Source: Vulcanisaeta moutnovskia 768-28
GTDB taxonomy: Archaea > Thermoproteota > Thermoprotei > Thermoproteales > Thermocladiaceae
Assembly (NCBI RefSeq): GCF_000190315.1
Contig: NC_015151.1
Location: forward strand, 992,001 to 1,056,000
Direction of reading: 5' to 3'
Length of the DNA stretch: 64,000 bases
Shown here: positions 24,108-58,011 of the stretch, one piece after another
Position numbering within the stretch: the stretch's first letter is position 1
Layout: each line of letters starts with the position of its first letter
Notes under the pieces: generated by a model
What the model was told of the DNA's origin: nothing
The model's input: the letters and a program-made list of their open reading frames with translations, nothing else
Database searches by the model: none
Made by a program: the position numbers and the translations under genes

Positions 24108-25295
24108 ATGAGGATTTTGGTTGTTAGTAGGTACACGTGGCCTGAGGGTGGAGGAGCCGAACTAGCCACTTGGTACTATCTAAGGGAGATGAGTAAGTAC
24201 TTCAAGATCACCCTGATCTCCGGCACGAGAAACCCAAGCAGGGATTTACTCAGTAGGGTTAATTACGTATTCCTACCTGGATTAAATAATAGTGGTTTTA
24301 AGTTAAAGGATTGGATAATATTAACTAAATATAAGGATTTATTGAGCAGGCTTATTAGGGCTCATGACTTAGTCTATATACCATCTAAGAACATGTATCC
24401 TGCAGCGTTACTCGCGAAATCTATAGATCCGAAAAAGCCCGTTGTTATTCATGTGCATGATTATCAACCAATAACATACACAGCCGCAAAGTTTCCCGGC
24501 ATTGAACCTGGTATTAAGACTGACATTACGTATGAGAGACTCGAGCATTCTATGCTCAAGTCCGTCATTGTTGGTTATCTATCGATTATAAATACCGTAA
24601 ATAAGCTTGCCGTAAAGTACGCAGACCTGTTAATATTTGTGTCGAAGAGACAAGCGGATTACGTGATGAGTACAATGCCAGAACTTAGAGGTAAGGGTGT
24701 TGTTATTTATAACCCACCGTTATCAATAGGCAGGGATTCGAAGAGGTTTAGTGATGAACCTACGGCTATGTTCATGGGTGGTTCATCAAAGACGAAGGGC
24801 TTTACATTGCTCATAGGTTCGTTAATTAAAGCCCTAAGGGATGGTGTTAAGGTAAGGGTCTTAGTAACTAATTATATATTAAATGGTATTAAGTTACCAA
24901 GTTGGCTCAATGGCATCATACAAGTGCTTGGTAGGATTAGTCATGACGAGTTATTAAGTAAGTTAGGTGAGACCTGGTTTACTGTCCATCCATCCATATA
25001 TGAGGAGCCACTACCGTACTCGCTTCTTGAGGGTTTGTTCACCCATAATTTAGTTATTGCATCTAGGGTTGGTGGTATACCCGAAATACTCTCTGGAACA
25101 CCCATGGAGAGTTTCCTGTTTGATCCTCTCAGTATTGATGAATTTACGGAAAAAATTGAACGCTCAGTGAGTCTAGACCCTGGAACTATTTATGATTTAT
25201 CCGAGAAGTCTATGAAAATCGTAAGTGATAGGCTTGTACAGAGCAGTTCCCGCTTCATACCAATAATTAGCGACCTGGTTAATAACTATGGATAA
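24108..25295 (+). CDS. GT4 glycosyltransferase (395 aa)
   Basis: The N-terminal glycine-rich acceptor loop is VSRYTWPEGGGAELATWYYL. The C-terminal domain has FMGGSSKTKGFTLLIGSLI (donor phosphate binding) and HPSIYEEPLPYSLLEGLFTH, the E-x7-E of GT-B/GT4 enzymes, then ASRVGGIPEILSG. It transfers a sugar from a nucleotide-sugar to a growing glycan on the cytoplasmic face. It overlaps the oxidoreductase gene by eight bases. The sugar is unknown. Confidence 0.85.
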   Translation: MRILVVSRYTWPEGGGAELATWYYLREMSKYFKITLISGTRNPSRDLLSRVNYVFLPGLNNSGFKLKDWIILTKYKDLLSRLIRAHDLVYIPSKNMYPAALLAKSIDPKKPVVIHVHDYQPITYTAAKFPGIEPGIKTDITYERLEHSMLKSVIVGYLSIINTVNKLAVKYADLLIFVSKRQADYVMSTMPELRGKGVVIYNPPLSIGRDSKRFSDEPTAMFMGGSSKTKGFTLLIGSLIKALRDGVKVRVLVTNYILNGIKLPSWLNGIIQVLGRISHDELLSKLGETWFTVHPSIYEEPLPYSLLEGLFTHNLVIASRVGGIPEILSGTPMESFLFDPLSIDEFTEKIERSVSLDPGTIYDLSEKSMKIVSDRLVQSSSRFIPIISDLVNNYG

Positions 25296-42514: not shown

Positions 42515-43228
42515 ATGCCTAAGTTAATATATCTAGTCGGACCTGAAGGTGCCGGTAAATCCTCTAATGCTAGGTTAATCAAGTATTACCTTACTAAGTA
42601 TTATGGTAGATGCGTTGCTGTTCCTAAACCTGGTGGTGAAATTAGAAGCAGGAACCTATTTGTTGATGTGCTTGCCAGGTTCTTAATGAGGGTTGGTAGA
42701 GTTGAGTATGACTATAGGCCTGAGGGTAAGCTCATGCGTAAGGTGGATAGCGTCCTAATGAGTAGGATACATGGATTATGGATATTCATAGAACTTCTCG
42801 GCTTTCTAACTGCCTACTTTGTTAAGGTAATTGCCGTACAGCTTTTCGGCTGTGACGTCGTGCTTACTAGGTTCATAATTGATTTCTTAACAGACATGTT
42901 CCTACTAAGTAGGCGCGCTGGTAAATCATTTAGGTTGGTCAGTACATTAACGTATGTATTCTTAAGGCCGATGTTCGGTGTTGACTTAATAATTTACTTA
43001 GATGCTGATTATTCAGTATTAAGGAAGCGCTATTATATTGCTAAGCGTGATATGATAGAGCCTCCGTGGAGGATCGCCAGGATACGAGTAATTAGTAGAG
43101 CGTTATTTAATATGATTAGTAAATATTACGATGATTTGATGTACATAGACACAACGGATAAGAGGTTGTCCCAAGTCTTTAATATAGTCTTCAGTAGGGT
43201 AAAGGGTTTATACGAGGATCATGGATAA
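42515..43228 (+). CDS. Thymidylate-kinase-like P-loop kinase (237 aa)
   Basis: YLVGPEGAGKSSNARLIKYY contains Walker A (GPEGAGKSS). A hydrophobic middle (IELLGFLTAYFVKVIAVQLF) sets it apart from soluble thymidylate kinases, and TRFIIDFLTDMF occupies the DR(Y/F) position. IYLDADYSVLRKRYYIAKRD resembles the kinase lid region. It overlaps the next GT4 gene by eight bases. The function is unknown; phosphorylation of a lipid or sugar intermediate is a guess. Confidence 0.65.
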   Translation: MPKLIYLVGPEGAGKSSNARLIKYYLTKYYGRCVAVPKPGGEIRSRNLFVDVLARFLMRVGRVEYDYRPEGKLMRKVDSVLMSRIHGLWIFIELLGFLTAYFVKVIAVQLFGCDVVLTRFIIDFLTDMFLLSRRAGKSFRLVSTLTYVFLRPMFGVDLIIYLDADYSVLRKRYYIAKRDMIEPPWRIARIRVISRALFNMISKYYDDLMYIDTTDKRLSQVFNIVFSRVKGLYEDHG

Positions 43229-46553: not shown

Positions 46554-47939
46554 GTGAATTACCCAAACATAGTCCTTATAGTGATTGATACATTAAGGAA
46601 GGACGTACTGAGCATATACGGCGGGCCTGTACGTGCAGGAAGCCTTGAGTGGCTTGGTAAGGAGGGCGTGGTGTTTCCAAACCCTGTGGCGCCTGCTCCC
46701 TGGTCATTACCATCCCACACATCCATGTTTACTGGGAAATACCCTAGGGATCATGGTGTTCATGAGACGTACGATCTCAAGGAGTATAGTCTCAAACAAC
46801 TCATGGCTAAGGTGCCGTTTAAGACCTTACCTGAGAAATTAAGGGAGTTGGGTTACAACACCGTTGGTATATCGGCCAATGACTGGATAGCACCTGGGAC
46901 CGGCTTTGAGAGAGGGTTTGATGTCTTCCTGCATGTGCATGCCTTTGATCCTGTAAGACCAATATTTAACGAAATAAATAGGATAATTAGGAAGCTGAGA
47001 AGCCTGGGCATACTCGAGAGGGGGGTCCAGGACCCGTTTATTGCGGCTAAGGAGTTAATTAAGAAGAGCAGTTTCAGAGAACTTGTAAGGTTGGTTAAAC
47101 TATATATTAAGGCCTATGGTATTGTCAGGGCATTGGGGTATCCTGAGGATAAGGGTGGTAATGAGATAATTAGGCTTATTGAGAATCTATCGTTGAGGGA
47201 ACCGTTTTTCCTATTCATAAATTTCATGGAGGTTCACCAACCATACAAGACTGATGCGCCGAAATTAACCCTAGCGATGTATAGTCCATTAATATTTCCC
47301 GACCTATTTGGCTATAAGAAAATACCTAGTGAGACCATGGAGAGGATTAGGAGGGATTATCAAAACGAGGTTAGAATTGTGGATAAGTACATATGGAGGA
47401 TAATTGGTTATTTAAAAACGAGGAATTTATACGATAATACATTGATAATCGTGGTTGGGGATCACGGTCAGGAGCTTAAGGAGAGGGGTTATTATGGCCA
47501 TGCTATTTATCTACATAACGAGATAATCGAGGTGCCCTTCGTGGTTAAGTTACCTAGGGGTAGGAAGTTCATGCCTAAGGACGGCTATCAAAGCCTAACT
47601 AAGATACCTGATCTGATAATGAATGCTATTGAGGGTAATTATGAAGATGTCGTGACTAGGGATCTAGCCTTCTCGGAGGCTTATGGTATAACTCATGACT
47701 TAAAGCTCGTGCTGGGTAAGTACATGGGCAGACCTGACTTTAATGAGAAGAGGAGGGTTATTGATTGTGAGAGGAAGGCTGTTTATTATAGGGGTTACAA
47801 GCTTGTGATTAACACCACGCTTAATACTATAGAGGAGTTTTCGCATAATGGCCGTGAATTGAATACAGACAATAATGGGGATATCGTTAAGGAGTTACAA
47901 GAGTTGATTGAATCGTTTAGGAGAGGTGAGGTTGAGTGA
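46554..47939 (+). CDS. Alkaline-phosphatase-superfamily enzyme (sulfatase-like or phosphotransferase) (461 aa)
   Basis: NIVLIVIDTLRKDVLS holds a metal-binding Asp (D12), and APAPWSLPSHTSMFTG is the nucleophile loop. In type-I sulfatases it reads C-x-P-S-R with Cys made into formylglycine; here Ser51 and His55 replace Cys and Arg. GDHGQE (D303-H304) is the second metal site. The loop fits phosphodiesterase or phosphotransferase members better than classical sulfatases. The GTG start has a GGTGAT ribosome-binding site. The product overlaps the next GT2 by four bases. Confidence 0.7.
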   Translation: MNYPNIVLIVIDTLRKDVLSIYGGPVRAGSLEWLGKEGVVFPNPVAPAPWSLPSHTSMFTGKYPRDHGVHETYDLKEYSLKQLMAKVPFKTLPEKLRELGYNTVGISANDWIAPGTGFERGFDVFLHVHAFDPVRPIFNEINRIIRKLRSLGILERGVQDPFIAAKELIKKSSFRELVRLVKLYIKAYGIVRALGYPEDKGGNEIIRLIENLSLREPFFLFINFMEVHQPYKTDAPKLTLAMYSPLIFPDLFGYKKIPSETMERIRRDYQNEVRIVDKYIWRIIGYLKTRNLYDNTLIIVVGDHGQELKERGYYGHAIYLHNEIIEVPFVVKLPRGRKFMPKDGYQSLTKIPDLIMNAIEGNYEDVVTRDLAFSEAYGITHDLKLVLGKYMGRPDFNEKRRVIDCERKAVYYRGYKLVINTTLNTIEEFSHNGRELNTDNNGDIVKELQELIESFRRGEVE

Positions 47940-50593: not shown

Positions 50594-50974
50594 TTAAAGA
50601 AGGTACGGTTCAGCCCTCTCTAATCTACCCGTTTTGGATCCAACCCTGAACTCAAACTTCTCAAGTGCCGTCACACCTAGTAGTGCGTCTACATTTGTGG
50701 GTAGCTTGAGGTTCGGCCATACTTCAACATCCCCGTAGGTTACGGAATCTTTCACCTTAATCTCGCCACCACCATACTTGACTTTAACAATACTACCGTC
50801 AGGTAGTCTCCCAACTCTCTCATACTTAAACTCCATGCCAAGCCCCTGAGCCTTCTCAGGGGTGGTGATAATGTCTCCATAGAAGCCAGTATCAACAAGA
50901 ACCCTTAACCCAACCCCACCACCAGGCCCACGAACCTCCGCATCAACAACTACAGAACCCACAGCGCACACCAA
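50594..50974 (-). CDS. Retropepsin-like aspartyl protease (126 aa)
   Basis: LRVLVDTGFYGDIITTPEKA contains the catalytic DTG (28-30), followed by a beta-rich fold with DALLGVTALEKFEFRV. This matches clan AA archaeal aspartic proteases (AF_0612-like), which are single-domain and act as dimers. It stands alone on the minus strand between glycan genes. The target is unknown. Confidence 0.75.
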   Translation of the reverse strand: MVCAVGSVVVDAEVRGPGGGVGLRVLVDTGFYGDIITTPEKAQGLGMEFKYERVGRLPDGSIVKVKYGGGEIKVKDSVTYGDVEVWPNLKLPTNVDALLGVTALEKFEFRVGSKTGRLERAEPYLL

Positions 50975-51153: not shown

Positions 51154-52056
51154 ATGTTATTAATTTCAGGGCAACTGGCGCAGAGAATACTGGAGGAAAG
51201 CGAGGCTATGGGTCTTGATCCACAGCAATACTTAGCTATACTCCTTAATAAGGGTACTCCGCAGCGGAGACTTGACTTATTACCGCTGAAGTATAAGATA
51301 GCCATAGCAGAGGTAGTCACTGAGGCCGCCTTGACTACCTTTAAGAAAGTGGTTGTTGTTTGGAGTGGTGGTAAGGATAGTACAGTTGTGCTGCACCTTG
51401 CTAAGACTGTTGCTGATAGGGTTGGTAAGGCGTTTGATGTAGTTTTCATAGACCACTACATGCATTTTGACGAAACCTTAGAGTTTATCGAGAAGGTTGC
51501 TAAGGAATGGGGCCTTAGGCTGTTCGTTAAGGGTAATGAGAGGCTTAAAGGCTTTAAGTACGGTGACGTGGTTAAAGTCGACCAACTTGACCAGAGGGAT
51601 CGTGATGAGCTCCTCAGGATAGGCTATGCAAAGCCTGAGTTCACCTTCAGCCTAAATAACATAGCTGCAAACCACCTACTGAAGACTGTGCCCCTGAACG
51701 AATTCATTAGTGATGGTCATTACGATGGGGTATTCGTTGGTATTAGGTGGGATGAGAATCCTGCTAGGGCTGGCGAAGTGTTCTTCAGTAGGCGTGAGAA
51801 GCCACTACACATTAGGGTTCATCCCATTCTTCCATTTACCGAGAGGGATGTTTGGGACTACACATTGAGTAATAAGCTACCGATAAACCCACTGTACTAT
51901 AGGGGTTTTAGGAGTATTGATGATAAGTACGAGACTAAGCCGACTGGTGATAGGCCTGCCTGGGAGCAGGATTTGGAGGGTAGTCCTGAACGCGCTGGTA
52001 GGGCTCAGGATAAGGAGGGCATAATGGAGTTACTTAGGCGTTACGGGTATATGTGA
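51154..52056 (+). CDS. CysD-like PP-loop enzyme (sulfate adenylyltransferase / PAPS-reductase family) (300 aa)
   Basis: VVVWSGGKDSTVVLHLAK is the PP-loop (S71-S76). GIRWDENPARAGEVFFSRR and LHIRVHPILPFTERDVWDY, with ERAGRAQDKEGIMELLRRYG near the end, follow the CysD pattern (SERqGR, MErKKR). CysD and the large GTPase CysN make APS; no CysN is visible here. It may activate sulfate for glycan sulfation, or belong to the related PAPS-reductase family. The stop overlaps the next gene start (GTGA). Confidence 0.7.
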   Translation: MLLISGQLAQRILEESEAMGLDPQQYLAILLNKGTPQRRLDLLPLKYKIAIAEVVTEAALTTFKKVVVVWSGGKDSTVVLHLAKTVADRVGKAFDVVFIDHYMHFDETLEFIEKVAKEWGLRLFVKGNERLKGFKYGDVVKVDQLDQRDRDELLRIGYAKPEFTFSLNNIAANHLLKTVPLNEFISDGHYDGVFVGIRWDENPARAGEVFFSRREKPLHIRVHPILPFTERDVWDYTLSNKLPINPLYYRGFRSIDDKYETKPTGDRPAWEQDLEGSPERAGRAQDKEGIMELLRRYGYM

Positions 52057-53345
52057 TCATGAAGAGACCGAACATAATAATACTAGTCATTGATACGTTA
52101 AGGGAGGACCACAGTCAAGGGCTTAACAGGCTCAGCGAGCTTGGCTTTGTGAAATATGAGAATGCCATTGCACCAGCGCCATGGACACTACCAAGCCACG
52201 TAAGCCTAATTACAGGATTGTACCCAAGCCAACATGGAATTCATGAGGGTTTTAGTAGGACTAATGAGGATTTGATGCACATAGCCACCGCAGGCATGAG
52301 TAGGTTAAGCTACGGTTTGTTGGGCGAGTTGAGGGATTACGAATACACAACCCATATAATCACCGCAAACCCGTACCTAAGCACGAAATTCGGGTTTAAG
52401 GCATACGAGAATGTGGTAGTACCTGGAAGGTTCTACTCAGAGAAGCACCTGGCCCTTTATAGGGAGTGGGTTGGGAAGTATGGCCGTAATAGGTATGTGA
52501 TGTTTAGGGATTTCGTTAAGAATGGCAGGTACGTGGATGCCATCCTCGGCATTATCTATAGTTCAATGAATGTCATAGAGGTATTGGCGCATAGGTTAGG
52601 GGTTCATGATTTGAGTATGGAGAAGGGTTCGAGATTGATAACGAGGATTATTGAGAAACGTAGGTTTATGGAGCCATTCTTACTATTAATAAATATAATG
52701 GAGGCTCATAGCCCGTACCTACCTGATGACCTAGGCGATGTGAAGTATAATAATGCTATCAGTAGGTGGATTATTGATGAGTATGTTAATGACCCAATAA
52801 TTGAGAGACTTAGGATTAGTTACCCAAGGCATTCATCCCTTGCCGTTGAGAGGGCCATAGGTATAGTACATGCATTAAGACCCTACCTCGACAATTCACT
52901 GATCATTGTGACCTCTGACCACGGTGAACTGCTCGGTGATGGTGGTTTGGGACATGGCTACTTCCTCAAGGATGGGTTACTCAGGGTGCCGTTATGGATT
53001 AGGTGGCCGAGTGGTGTCAAACCGCCTAAGCAAGCTGGCCACTACGTCAGCTTAACCCAAATACCCAGTATAATCAATAACGTAATTAATGGTGATGAGG
53101 TGAGGGTGGGGAGCAACTTAGCCTTATCAGAGAGCTTTGGGGCACCGCCATACATGGATTACAGTAAAGCAACGCATGAGCAGTTACGTAAGATATTCTC
53201 CCACAGGGTTAGGGTCTACACTAGGGGATGCATATTCACGTACAACGTGAGCATGGAGATAATCGAGGAAGGCAATTGCGAAGAAGGCACGGCAAAGGAA
53301 ATAATCAAGAACTTTATATCGTTAAGACCCCAACCAACCACGTGA
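52053..53345 (+). CDS. Alkaline-phosphatase-superfamily enzyme (sulfatase-like) (430 aa)
   Basis: IIILVIDTLREDHSQ carries the metal Asp and APAPWTLPSHVSLITG the nucleophile loop, with Thr45 and His49 in place of Cys and Arg. TSDHGELLGDGGLGHG is the second metal site. It is a paralog of the 46554 protein. The GTG at 52053 overlaps the CysD-like stop; an ATG at 52059 is the alternative start. Thr nucleophiles are typical of phosphoglycerol or phosphoethanolamine transferases and not of sulfatases. Confidence 0.7.
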   Translation: MIMKRPNIIILVIDTLREDHSQGLNRLSELGFVKYENAIAPAPWTLPSHVSLITGLYPSQHGIHEGFSRTNEDLMHIATAGMSRLSYGLLGELRDYEYTTHIITANPYLSTKFGFKAYENVVVPGRFYSEKHLALYREWVGKYGRNRYVMFRDFVKNGRYVDAILGIIYSSMNVIEVLAHRLGVHDLSMEKGSRLITRIIEKRRFMEPFLLLINIMEAHSPYLPDDLGDVKYNNAISRWIIDEYVNDPIIERLRISYPRHSSLAVERAIGIVHALRPYLDNSLIIVTSDHGELLGDGGLGHGYFLKDGLLRVPLWIRWPSGVKPPKQAGHYVSLTQIPSIINNVINGDEVRVGSNLALSESFGAPPYMDYSKATHEQLRKIFSHRVRVYTRGCIFTYNVSMEIIEEGNCEEGTAKEIIKNFISLRPQPTT

Positions 53346-53362: not shown

Positions 53363-53923
53363 TTAGCCCTGCTTACCTTTGGGTTCTTCCTTAAGTGCCC
53401 TCAAAGCGTTCTCTATCTCGTCGCTCCATTTTATCCTCGTCCTCAGTTCCTCTATGCGTCTTATTAGTTCGTTTATGAGGAGTCTTATGTCGTAGGCTGC
53501 CTCCTCCCTGCCTCTGTACTTGCTCAACGCCATGTCTGGGTCCGGCCCGTTGTATTGGTAGTCGTGGAGATCCAGCGCTGTGCTCGTCCATGCCGATAAC
53601 CCATCGTAACCTATTTCCTCAAGCATTTGTGACAATGCCTTCATCCTACTTGTCGGTACTCTAGGCACGGCCCTTTCCCTGAGCCACCTCCTCTCTTCGT
53701 CAGTCTTTGCGATTTGCATTAATTTATCGAGCTCAAGCCTCAATAAGGCAGCCAACAAAGCACGCCAGGACTGAAAGGCCTTACCCGCGGCATTCCTAAC
53801 AAGACCATCCTTTAGAAACCTAATCGCCAGTGAGGCCTCGACCAAGGACTCAAGAAGCCACGCATTCACGTAATCCTCCGTCGACGGCTTCGGCAACGGA
53901 TTCTCAAGGGTTTCTGTATCCAC
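53363..53923 (-). CDS. PaREP1-family protein (186 aa)
   Basis: The core AFLKDGLVRNAAGKAFQSW-like segment (here AIRFLKDGLVRNAAGKAFQ) with a following LAALLRLELDKL is the hallmark of PaREP1 proteins, a multicopy helical family in Pyrobaculum and other Thermoproteales. A TATA element (GTATTTAAGTAG, about 53945-53956) precedes a GTG start at 53923, giving a leaderless message. The function of PaREP1 proteins is unknown. The 268 bases from 53924 to 54191 hold that promoter and no convincing gene. Confidence 0.8.
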   Translation of the reverse strand: MDTETLENPLPKPSTEDYVNAWLLESLVEASLAIRFLKDGLVRNAAGKAFQSWRALLAALLRLELDKLMQIAKTDEERRWLRERAVPRVPTSRMKALSQMLEEIGYDGLSAWTSTALDLHDYQYNGPDPDMALSKYRGREEAAYDIRLLINELIRRIEELRTRIKWSDEIENALRALKEEPKGKQG

Positions 53924-54191: not shown

Positions 54192-56800
54192 TTACTGCCT
54201 AGATGCTTCCAACGCCCTCCTAACGGCATCCCTATGCAGCGGCGACTGCCAGGCCACGTACCTACCTATCCCAAGCTCTAAATCCCTCTCTGGCGGTGGT
54301 TCGTCTATCCACAGCTGTTCCATCCTCCTGGGTAGGAAGTATAGGATTAGGTTTCTGCTTATTAACTCGTTGGTGAGTTCCTCGGGTGCATTAAACCATA
54401 GGTAATCCGGGTCATTAACGGCCTCCCCGAGATGACCATGCTACCTCCTAATAAAGTTATACGTTAGGTTCTTCCTAGTGATTAGGTCGTTAATGACGGC
54501 CTCCGTATCCCAATTAGCCTTGTATAGCATTTCCAAGATCCTTGGGTTTCCCCCGGTTAACCTCCAGGCCTCCTCAAAGTCCGGCTTACCGCCCGGTATT
54601 TGCTCATAGAGCTGCCTGAATCCCTCCTTACCTATGTTCCACATCGGCCTTAAGTTAGCCCACTCGTGCCTACCTATTTCGCGTAGGCTCATTACCTCGC
54701 TCGTGGCTGCTATGGTTACGACTCTCTCATAGGGCCTTGGTGGATGTTCAAGGATTCCTAACATCCCCTTCACATAAATCGCTGCTCTATCAATGCCAAT
54801 GGCCTGGAACACATCGTCAACTATTATCGCAATCCTCCCACGACCAAGGCTTATCGCCTCCCTCGCAACATCGATTACTGACCAAACAACACCACCCCAA
54901 GACAACTGCGACGTGGCCTCCCTAACCAGGCTGATTAACTTATCCCTAAGACTTTGTACGCCGATTTCCACCGTGAACTCCTTCTCGACTGGGTTGATGT
55001 AAATTACGTCGAAGCCACCCAGCGCGAAGGATTTTAGGGCGTCGCTCGGTGTCTCTACTAGTGGTTCTCCTGCTAGGTTGAAGCTCGTGTTTAGGATTAT
55101 TCCCTCGCCGGTCAGGTCCTTGAATGCCTTGATTAGTTCGTACCATGTTGGGTTCTCGTCCTTAGCAACAGTCTGTGGTCTTGCAGTCCCATCAACGTGG
55201 TACACAGCAGGCACAACCTCGCCCATACCCTCCCTAAATTTGAACATTAGTATCATGAACTGATGAGGCACTGGGTCTATGAAGTACTTACCAGCGTCCT
55301 CAACAAGTAGCGAAGGAGCCAACGGCCTCCACCACTCCCTACCCTTAATATCATTCACCAACCTCCACATCTCCCTACGCCTAGGATCAGCCACAATTGA
55401 GCGGTTACCAAGGGCCCTAGGACCCAACTCTGCACGGCCCTGGTACCAAGCAATCACATTGCCCTTGGCAATGAGTTCGGCAACCTCATTGACATCATCA
55501 CCAATGTACCTAGCCTCAAACCTACTACGCTCGACAATCTTCTTTATTTCATCGTCAGAGTACTCAGGACCGAGGTAGACAGTCCTTAACCTTTGATTCC
55601 TCATCTTCCCACCAAGCACGTGCTCGTACACGTACGCGGCAGCACCAACAGTTGTACCAGCATCATTGGCTGCCGGGAAAATGAACATTTCATTGAATAG
55701 TTTAGCATAGTGAATTGCCATGTTGGCCTTGGCATTGAGAGCCACACCACCGGCAAGAGCCAACCTATCCTCACCAGTGTGCTCCCTAGCCCACTCGGCA
55801 AGCCGGAGCATAGCCTCCTCAGTAACAGCCTGAACGGCCCAAGCTAAATCAACGGCATCCCTATTCAAATCGCCACGGGGATTCCAGGGAACACGGCCAG
55901 GAAAGAGGGAGTTAGCAATGACTCGATAAGGCCTCATGTAGGTTGCATCATCACCCTTAACAACCCTTGGTCTAGAACCATCAACACTTATGTAATACGG
56001 GTAATCCTTATCATCAAACCTGAAGTAAGACCTCAACTTCTCATAATACCTGCTTTTTTGGCCATAGGGTGCAAGACCCATGACCTTACCAGGGCCCTCT
56101 AAGCGATCATAACCAATCGTCCGGAAACCTCCTCATAGAGGAGCCCGAGTGACCCATAATAGGTCGGTATTGAGACCACCTTCTCAAACTCACCATTCCT
56201 AACCCTCCAAATAACCGTAGACTCAAGCTCACCGTAACCATCGACAGTAACAACAGCAGCGTTGTTAAAGCCGCTGAAGTAGTAGGCAGAGGCGGCATGA
56301 GCAAGATGATGCTCAACTGGGATTATCCTAACTTTACTCGGCAACTCCTCACCAAGATCATAAATAACCTTCTTAACAAGTCTCTCGGCCCAAACAAGAA
56401 TAGCACCCCTATCCAAAGGCCAAGTGAGATAACGAAAACCGACGCTGATCAAAGCATGAGCCTTGTCAAGTATTGAAAGCTGTCCATAAATACCGCTTAA
56501 GTAATGAAAAGATAACGCATTCATTAAAACGCTTCTTAAAAACTTCATATACAGTTTATTAGGTAATATACCTGGGTGGAAGTTCACGGCATATGCATCT
56601 ATTTCCTTCGGCTTTATCCCATACTTGTTCTTTAGGAATTTAAAGGCTTGCTTTAATGCGTTTATTGGTGGTTCACCCGGCGAGTGCTTATGCCTAGTCC
56701 ACCTCTCCTCCTCACTCGCGAAGACCAACTCACCATCAACAATAACAGCAACCGAGTTATCATGCTCCAAAGGCCAATTAAACCCAACAACAATAGTCAC
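54192..56800 (-). pseudogene. Carbamoyltransferase (NodU/CmcH type) fused to a remnant archaeal ATPase
   Basis: From 56800 the product is a NodU/CmcH carbamoyltransferase: VVGFNWPLEHDNSVAVIVDG, PVEHHLAHAASAYYFSGF and LALAGGVALNAKANMAIHYA are typical, with WYQGRAELGPRALGNRS in the Carbam_trans_C domain. A single missing base near 56092 shifts the frame at GRL/GYDRLEGPGKVMG. After about 54960 the frame runs into an archaeal ATPase C-terminal half (GRGRIAIIVDDVFQAIG, then WRLTGGNPRILEMLYKA) that lacks Walker A. A TAG at 54441-54443, in the same frame, precedes EAVNDPDYLWFNAPEELTNE, where Trp is likely expected. The product ends at a TAA (54192-54194). It is a chimeric, inactivated gene. Confidence 0.75.
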
Positions 56801-57067: not shown

Positions 57068-58011
57068 CTAGTCTTTAAAGCATGTCAATGTTCCATGCCT
57101 ACTAAGTCCAGTCCTTATGGCTATGTCGTTGTGTGTCCATGTTCGGCATTTGTACCCCATTGGCTCTATTTTGCTGATTAGATCATTGGCTGTGTAGTTC
57201 CTCAGGTAACCCGCGTACTCGACCTTAATGATGTCGAATAGCCTAAGCACGTCAGTCTCGTTACTGACCACATCCCACTCACAGCCCTTACAATCCAACT
57301 TGAGAACCTTGACCCTGAAGCTGCTCAAATCAATACTAAGCCTTGAAACCTCATTAATCAGCGTCCCAAGCCTCATAGACCTAACCCTAGCCTTAAACCT
57401 TTTCACCTCATATATGGATGCTGCACCATCAAACTCGCCATCATAGGATATATTCACATAATCATCCCTATCTGCAATGGCGGCATTGATGGGTAATATC
57501 CTCGGCCTAAGCCCTGGGTTAAGCTCAATATTCCTAATCATCTCCTCGTAATTAATGGGCACTGGCTCAACGGCAATGACGAAGGCGCCTCTCCTAGCGT
57601 AGTAGAGGGCCGTATCGCCAATATACGCGCCAACATCAACAACGAGCCAATTACTGAGGTCAAAACCAAGAAAATGAACATCATAGAGCCAAGTCTCGGC
57701 AATGGTGAATGGGTCGATGTACTTTAGCTTAACACCGTCAGGCATTATGAATAATAAATCGCCATCACCATTAATGAAAACCTAACAACACCATAAAGAT
57801 AAGCCCCACCCACATAATCAACACGCCCTATCAAACCATTACGATAAGCATTGACGAGCCATGAATATGCCGATGGGCTGAGCCTAGCCCCAACCCCGCA
57901 CCTAAATGTGACATCCACATCGCCCTTAGCCAAGCCATGCCTAATGAGCATGTACCTAACGCCGGCCCAAAACCAGTTCTTAAAAAGACCACGACTCCTC
58001 AGGAAAAGCAC
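57068..58011 (-). pseudogene. FkbM-family methyltransferase broken by a frameshift
   Basis: The N-terminal piece (from 58011) reads MLFLRSRGLFKNWFWAGVRY and stops at 57745 after VRFSLMVMAIYYS. The second piece continues in another frame with NGDGDLLFIMPDGVKL, then VVDVGAYIGDTALYYARRGA (SAM-binding), VAVEPVPINYEEMIRNI and DCKGCEWDVVSN, the FkbM motifs. One missing base near 57758 explains the break. It is a paralog of the intact gene at 34751. Confidence 0.72.

Follow-up and report, generated by a model that had tools for sequence, protein, structure and literature searches.

A probable chimeric pseudogene in Vulcanisaeta moutnovskia, joining a carbamoyltransferase gene in frame to half of an archaeal ATPase gene

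Genes of the paREP families have been linked to genome rearrangement in the crenarchaeon Pyrobaculum oguniense. In that genome, paREP genes are described as marking regions of difference, the ends of one inversion as formed by an inverted duplication that includes a paREP-associated gene, and, of the 16 largest regions that P. arsenaticum lacks, six as linked to paREP1/8 (PMC3558965). PaREP1/8 is also counted among the HEPN families (PMC3710099). The locus presented here, from the hot-spring archaeon Vulcanisaeta moutnovskia 768-28, appears to be a further genome rearrangement at a paREP gene in another crenarchaeon, and would by analogy fit this paREP-associated habit; however, long repeats and large segments are involved in P. 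oguniense (PMC3558965), whereas here a short motif inside two unrelated genes seems to have been used.

The window, i.e., the whole stretch of 64,000 nucleotides that was analysed (G000:C1:992001-1056000), belongs to the one-contig genome G000 (2,298,983 bases, 99.97% complete). Two protein families meet in it. The first, of sugar-modifying enzymes, comprises the carbamoyltransferases (CTases) with PF02543 and PF16861, which we take to be those named NodU/CmcH. The gene of the window resembles them in having both Pfam domains and a C-terminal part 86–88% identical to the uninterrupted copies of the relatives G010 and G007, but it is frameshifted, lacks the conserved C-terminal tail, and is joined to an ATPase half. 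The second family comprises the archaeal ATPases of the ATPase_2 type (PF01637), tandemly repeated in Vulcanisaeta, with which the window copy shares a C-terminal half with a Walker-B-like strand, a normal C-terminus, and a PaREP1 gene nearby, differing from them in the loss of the Walker A half and in a TAG in the place of a Trp. The locus is, in our opinion, very probably a recent chimeric pseudogene resulting from ordinary genome decay, and we infer from its sequence that the chimera would be non-functional.

The CTase gene is represented by the following features:
56102..56800, minus strand: N-terminal part of the CTase, 233 aa, terminating past the frameshift (Pfam Carbam_trans_N, E 1.1e-19; 53–78% amino acid identity to the copies in L040, L041, L043, L044, and L045).
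56118..56126, minus strand: frameshift site, one nucleotide shorter than in four relatives (DNA alignment with G007, G010, G023, and G003).
55008..56117, minus strand: C-terminal part of the CTase (87.9% amino acid identity to L040 and 86.5% to L041; Carbam_trans_C, E 8e-62).

Both CTase domains are present, distributed over two ORFs. The 233 aa ORF 56099-56800(-) matched Carbam_trans_N at residues 12–223, and the 546 aa ORF 54441-56081(-) matched Carbam_trans_N at residues 77–148 and Carbam_trans_C at residues 201–364 (E 8e-62), leaving Carbam_trans_N in two pieces that cover profile positions 9–192 and 199–345. A single open frame of about 600 aa, as found for the separate, uninterrupted CTases of G007 (602 aa), G010 (604 aa), and G023 (620 aa), does not exist at the locus, the gene being split near position 56122, where the DNA alignment revealed the lack of one nucleotide with respect to G007, G010, G023, and G003. 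The original prediction had already noticed this split, although it placed it near 56092, some 30 bases away. Genome G002 is seven nucleotides longer than the window at the same site, and its CTase is broken too, as is that of G003. Apart from the frameshift, the C-terminal part lacks only its last 8–12 residues, which read QGWLIRKR or similar in the relatives.

No intact second CTase was detected in G000 by family search, which returned one N-domain in two adjoining pieces and one fragment. The segment G000:C1:64095-64301 (L146), far from the window, matches Carbam_trans_N positions 9–73 within a 99-codon open stretch and is, as judged from this match, a second CTase remnant. Fragments of the CTase tail were also found in G010 and G003; at a second G010 locus (L042:13020-13295), only about the last 76 CTase residues are left, followed by fragments of sulfatase-like type and an ATPase in reverse. 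The CTase locus seems to be often rearranged in the genus.

The transition between both genes corresponds to a single feature:
55005..55019, minus strand: chimera joint, lying on the motif GFD-x-IYI common to both parents, where CTase homology stops and ATPase homology starts, with an overlap of about 20 bp.

Downstream of the CTase domains, the 546 aa ORF matched ATPase_2 at residues 356–519 (profile positions 48–225 of 225, E 4e-39). The E-values on the two sides, 8e-62 and 4e-39, are far beyond chance and support the in-frame CTase–ATPase chimera with an internal TAG that had been predicted; the CTase does run on in frame into the ATPase, not at about residue 330 as first proposed but at residues 355–359. 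The joint reads GGFDVIYINP in the window, the CTase ends of the relatives read GG(F/L)(D/K)AIY(I/L/M)QGW, and the ATPase strand that follows the Walker A helix mostly reads GF(D/E)V(I/V)Y(V/I)NP. When the window sequence was compared with the ends of seven CTases and with 38 ATPase rows, the crossover fitted the codons for G, F, and D. Between CTase ends of relatives and separate ATPases, 12–17 of the 21 bases at the joint are identical (6 CTase ends by 9 ATPases, the latter hand-picked and some of them having the longest identical runs). For the three best full-gene pairs among these 54, only 3, 4, and 8 of about 1.76 million comparison-window pairs from the same two genes scored as high as the joint, and for the worst pair, about 3 in 1000 did. 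The identity is uneven among copies. Even the ATPase nearest on the tree is 0.13 + 0.19 changes per site away, on a contig that starts inside the gene, and the true ATPase parent may be a different copy. We infer from this similarity that the joining took place at short homology, with the shared motif acting as microhomology. The two parent genes share the reading frame of this motif, and for this reason the frame was kept across the joint.

The ATPase portion contributes two features:
54192..55016, minus strand: C-terminal half of an ATPase_2 protein, without Walker A and with its natural stop kept (Pfam ATPase_2 positions 48–225; nearest paralogue on the tree, G003 L075:3-407).
54441..54443, minus strand: TAG within the frame, in the place of a Trp (the column has Trp in 21 of the 58 aligned rows; within the clade of the window copy, 10 of the other 11 rows have it).

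Walker A, GPEGCGKT in most paralogues, lies about 22 residues ahead of the GFDVVYV motif at which the window ATPase part starts, and its absence is explained by the joint falling after that position. A motif scan detected no Walker A between 48000 and 64000; the only one that it detected anywhere in the window, at 42539, belongs to a different gene. With respect to the ATPase_2 family, the copy therefore has no P-loop, and it retains the C-terminal half with the Walker-B-like strand IAIIVDD in its translation. Past the TAG, the same frame remains open for 82 residues up to the stop at 54194-54192, the position at which the interval of the original prediction begins. Of the 60 ATPase copies found, the alignment and tree comprise the 58 that reach 130 residues; L068:995 (103 aa) and L073:2 (52 aa) were left out. 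The TAG column of these 58 C-terminal halves contains 21 Trp, 34 other residues, two gaps, and the TAG itself. The rows with Trp, like the window copy, are those with the shorter loop ahead of this column. Among the clade rows with Trp are the two nearest ones, G003 L075:3 and G004 L072, the only exception being G004 L048:6923. Two further claims of the original prediction were corroborated in this way: the ATPase half without Walker A, as the profile match starts at 48 of 225 and the Walker A of the paralogues lies upstream of the joint, and the TAG at a likely Trp position, given the Trp of 10 of the 11 other clade rows.

The mechanism that we propose would consist of a rearrangement joining the 3' end of the only near-complete CTase found in G000 to the middle of an ATPase_2 gene of the ATPase/PaREP1 repeat family, with a breakpoint on some 20 bp common to both parents, which in both encode GFD-x-IYI. 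Such a joining would have removed the last CTase residues and the Walker A half of the ATPase while retaining the frame. Both frames would have been broken, either before or after the joining, that of the CTase by an indel of one nucleotide and that of the ATPase part by a change of Trp to TAG.

Comparison with the relatives showed signs of constraint on both genes. For the C-terminal part of the CTase (373 codons, a few of them past the joint), dN/dS was 0.085 against G007 (147.7 synonymous and 78.3 nonsynonymous differences), 0.079 against G010, and 0.137 against G023, whereas for the N-terminal part it was 0.307, 0.246, and 0.244, respectively, pairwise values that mostly reflect the time before the damage and do not date the events. 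Changes found only in the window amounted to 48 synonymous and 22 nonsynonymous in the C-terminal part, and to 25 synonymous and 33 nonsynonymous in the N-terminal part. For the ATPase part, comparison of 134 codons with its nearest relative, G003, gave a dN/dS of 0.095, the synonymous sites being close to saturated (dS 1.57). From these values, constraint on both genes seems to have lasted until recently, with less of it on the N-terminal part of the CTase, and the decay looks recent because this constraint is still visible.

The neighbour of the ATPase half is the following gene:
53363..53923, minus strand: gene of the PaREP1 family, often found next to such ATPases (Pfam PaREP1, E 2.5e-29).

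PaREP1 gave 26 matches in G000, 25 of them above the cut-off, and ATPase and PaREP1 copies adjoin in 13 of the 34 loci scanned, all of them chosen for ATPase or CTase matches, in several of the loci as tandem arrays. Tandem ATPase_2 arrays with several broken copies are seen in L046, L047, L048, and L075, with PaREP1 (HEPN) among or beside them in L046, L047, and L075; our guess is that the two genes of this repeat family may work together. Two further genes lie beyond PaREP1 in the window, one sulfatase-like at 52053-53345 (Pfam Sulfatase) and one PAPS-reductase-like at 51154-52056 (Pfam PAPS_reduct). They are part of a glycan-type gene island at 24108-59165, with glycosyltransferase families at 24108, 27130, 28315, 41310, 45386, and 58161, Sulfatase matches at 46554 and 52053, PAPS_reduct at 51154, and an FkbM methyltransferase at 57068. 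The ORF 50594-50974 has no Pfam match, and a relative of it is located beside a CTase tail in L077.

If the direction of the CTase is called forward, the CTase, the ATPase half, and PaREP1 are all forward in the window, and the sulfatase-like and PAPS-reductase-like genes are reverse. The arrangement in the relatives is different. L042 has a forward CTase tail and a forward sulfatase-like gene, followed by PaREP1 and ATPase in reverse; in L079, the CTase runs forward, as do the PAPS-reductase-like and sulfatase-like genes, and a piece of PaREP1 in reverse separates it from these two; in L044, the PaREP1 and ATPase adjoining the CTase are both reverse; and in L040, a reverse ATPase terminates next to the CTase stop. 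A simple deletion between the CTase and an ATPase/PaREP1 pair of the same direction, as had been predicted, is a variant of the pseudogene reading and not exclusive of it, and we regard it as a possible but less favoured route. It would take a single step, the shared motif would be the direct repeat at its joint, and the ATPase half and PaREP1 do lie in the same direction as the CTase. Moreover, the window ATPase was rejected as an orthologue of the CTase-side ATPases, as the tree gives G003 L075:3 as its sister, followed by G004 L072, and places the copies of G007 L040/G010 L042 and of G003 L044 elsewhere, so that another neighbour in another direction could have been present. However, the deletion was not borne out by gene order, since in L040, L042, and L044 an ATPase or PaREP1 located past the CTase, or past its tail, is opposite to it in direction, and the sulfatase-like gene, which runs with the CTase or its tail in L042 and L079, runs against it in the window. 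This last difference suggests an inversion between oppositely directed GFD-x-IYI motifs, with the reciprocal joint lost, as a route at least as likely as deletion, and the gene orders taken together fit it better. Two results speak against an inversion, however: the tree does not make the window ATPase an orthologue of those neighbours, and no reciprocal joint was found.

An inversion with a surviving reciprocal joint was discarded, as the ATPase N-terminal half was absent genome-wide and neither the CTase tail nor the Walker A of this ATPase was present in the window. The two strong N-half matches in G000 correspond to two other ATPase copies and the other four have E-values of 0.002 or worse, and no recognisable remnant was seen between 50975 and 51153, the gap in which the reciprocal joint of a short inversion would be expected.

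A search for the same fusion elsewhere gave negative results. None of the 11 other genomes of the genus, most of them drafts, aligned across the joint; five had no match at all, and three are at least 90% complete. With the genome of origin included, seven of 12 genomes matched (four of the 12 at least 90% complete), and only the window's own sequence crossed the joint. In a protein search over 61 genomes, including its own, none outside G000 spanned both parts among the matches listed, and the chimera is not a conserved gene fusion on these data. Instead, as the original prediction held, two unrelated genes appear to have been joined and to be decaying: the relatives carry them separately and intact (CTases in G007, G010, and G023, and full-length ATPases in many loci), and no relative with the fusion as an intact gene, the case that would have spoken against the prediction, appeared in those 11 genomes. 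None of the papers in the literature collection searched mentions Vulcanisaeta moutnovskia together with the word pseudogene.

Sequencing errors often take the form of single-base indels, and the indel, the TAG, or the joint could in principle be artefacts of sequencing or assembly that disguise two ordinary genes. We consider this unlikely: G000 is a single, nearly complete contig, the ATPase N-terminal half needed for two ordinary genes is absent from it, and the broken CTase and ATPase copies of relatives make real decay plausible, even if some of these are drafts and may contain errors too.

Recoding of TAG by pyrrolysine or a suppressor tRNA is unlikely, since TAG is a common stop here, terminating 18 of the 55 mechanically listed window ORFs of at least 150 aa (54441-56081 among the 18), the single match to the PylS C-domain scored 18.4 bits, where the cut-off is 178, and no CTA anticodon was found among the 32 tRNAs called by ARAGORN. 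These calls come from 44 tRNA loci, 43 of them above the family cut-off; 12 loci received no call, and two of the 32 anticodons are unclear. The ATPase L040:12521-13549(-) of G007, located beside the CTase, and its orthologue L042:15688-16716(-) of G010, near the CTase tail, have an in-frame TAG in common, at a Trp position ahead of Walker A. This pair showed a dN/dS of 0.19 (34 synonymous and 25 nonsynonymous), or 0.24 over a longer stretch, similar to the 0.08–0.23 of six stop-free pairs, which may mean that it is constrained despite the stop or that the TAG spread recently. It would take a bolder step to suppose that an in-frame TAG is tolerated at Trp codons of this ATPase family, in the copies of G007 and G010 and perhaps in the window, and that headless or TAG-interrupted ATPases are made and selected, by read-through or from an internal start just after Walker A, the chimera being another such form, and we hold this to be very unlikely.

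Also very unlikely is a functional new fusion gene, expressed from the 546 aa ORF or by TAG read-through, to which the frame open for 546 codons plus 82 past the TAG, the constraint visible on both parts, and that on the TAG-interrupted ATPases of G007 and G010 could be credited, but which would lack the CTase N-terminal part and Walker A, has no counterpart among the matches listed for the genomes searched, and owes its in-frame joining to the shared motif; read-through would, in addition, involve a codon for which the above signs are of an ordinary stop.

In conclusion, this probable pseudogene, with a breakpoint readable to about 15 bases, would illustrate cleanly how the gene next to a multi-copy ATPase/PaREP1 repeat can be disrupted by it in archaea. 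It would also be a warning that strong Pfam scores on either side of an in-frame chimera may reflect an accident, the frame being fixed by a motif common to unrelated genes.
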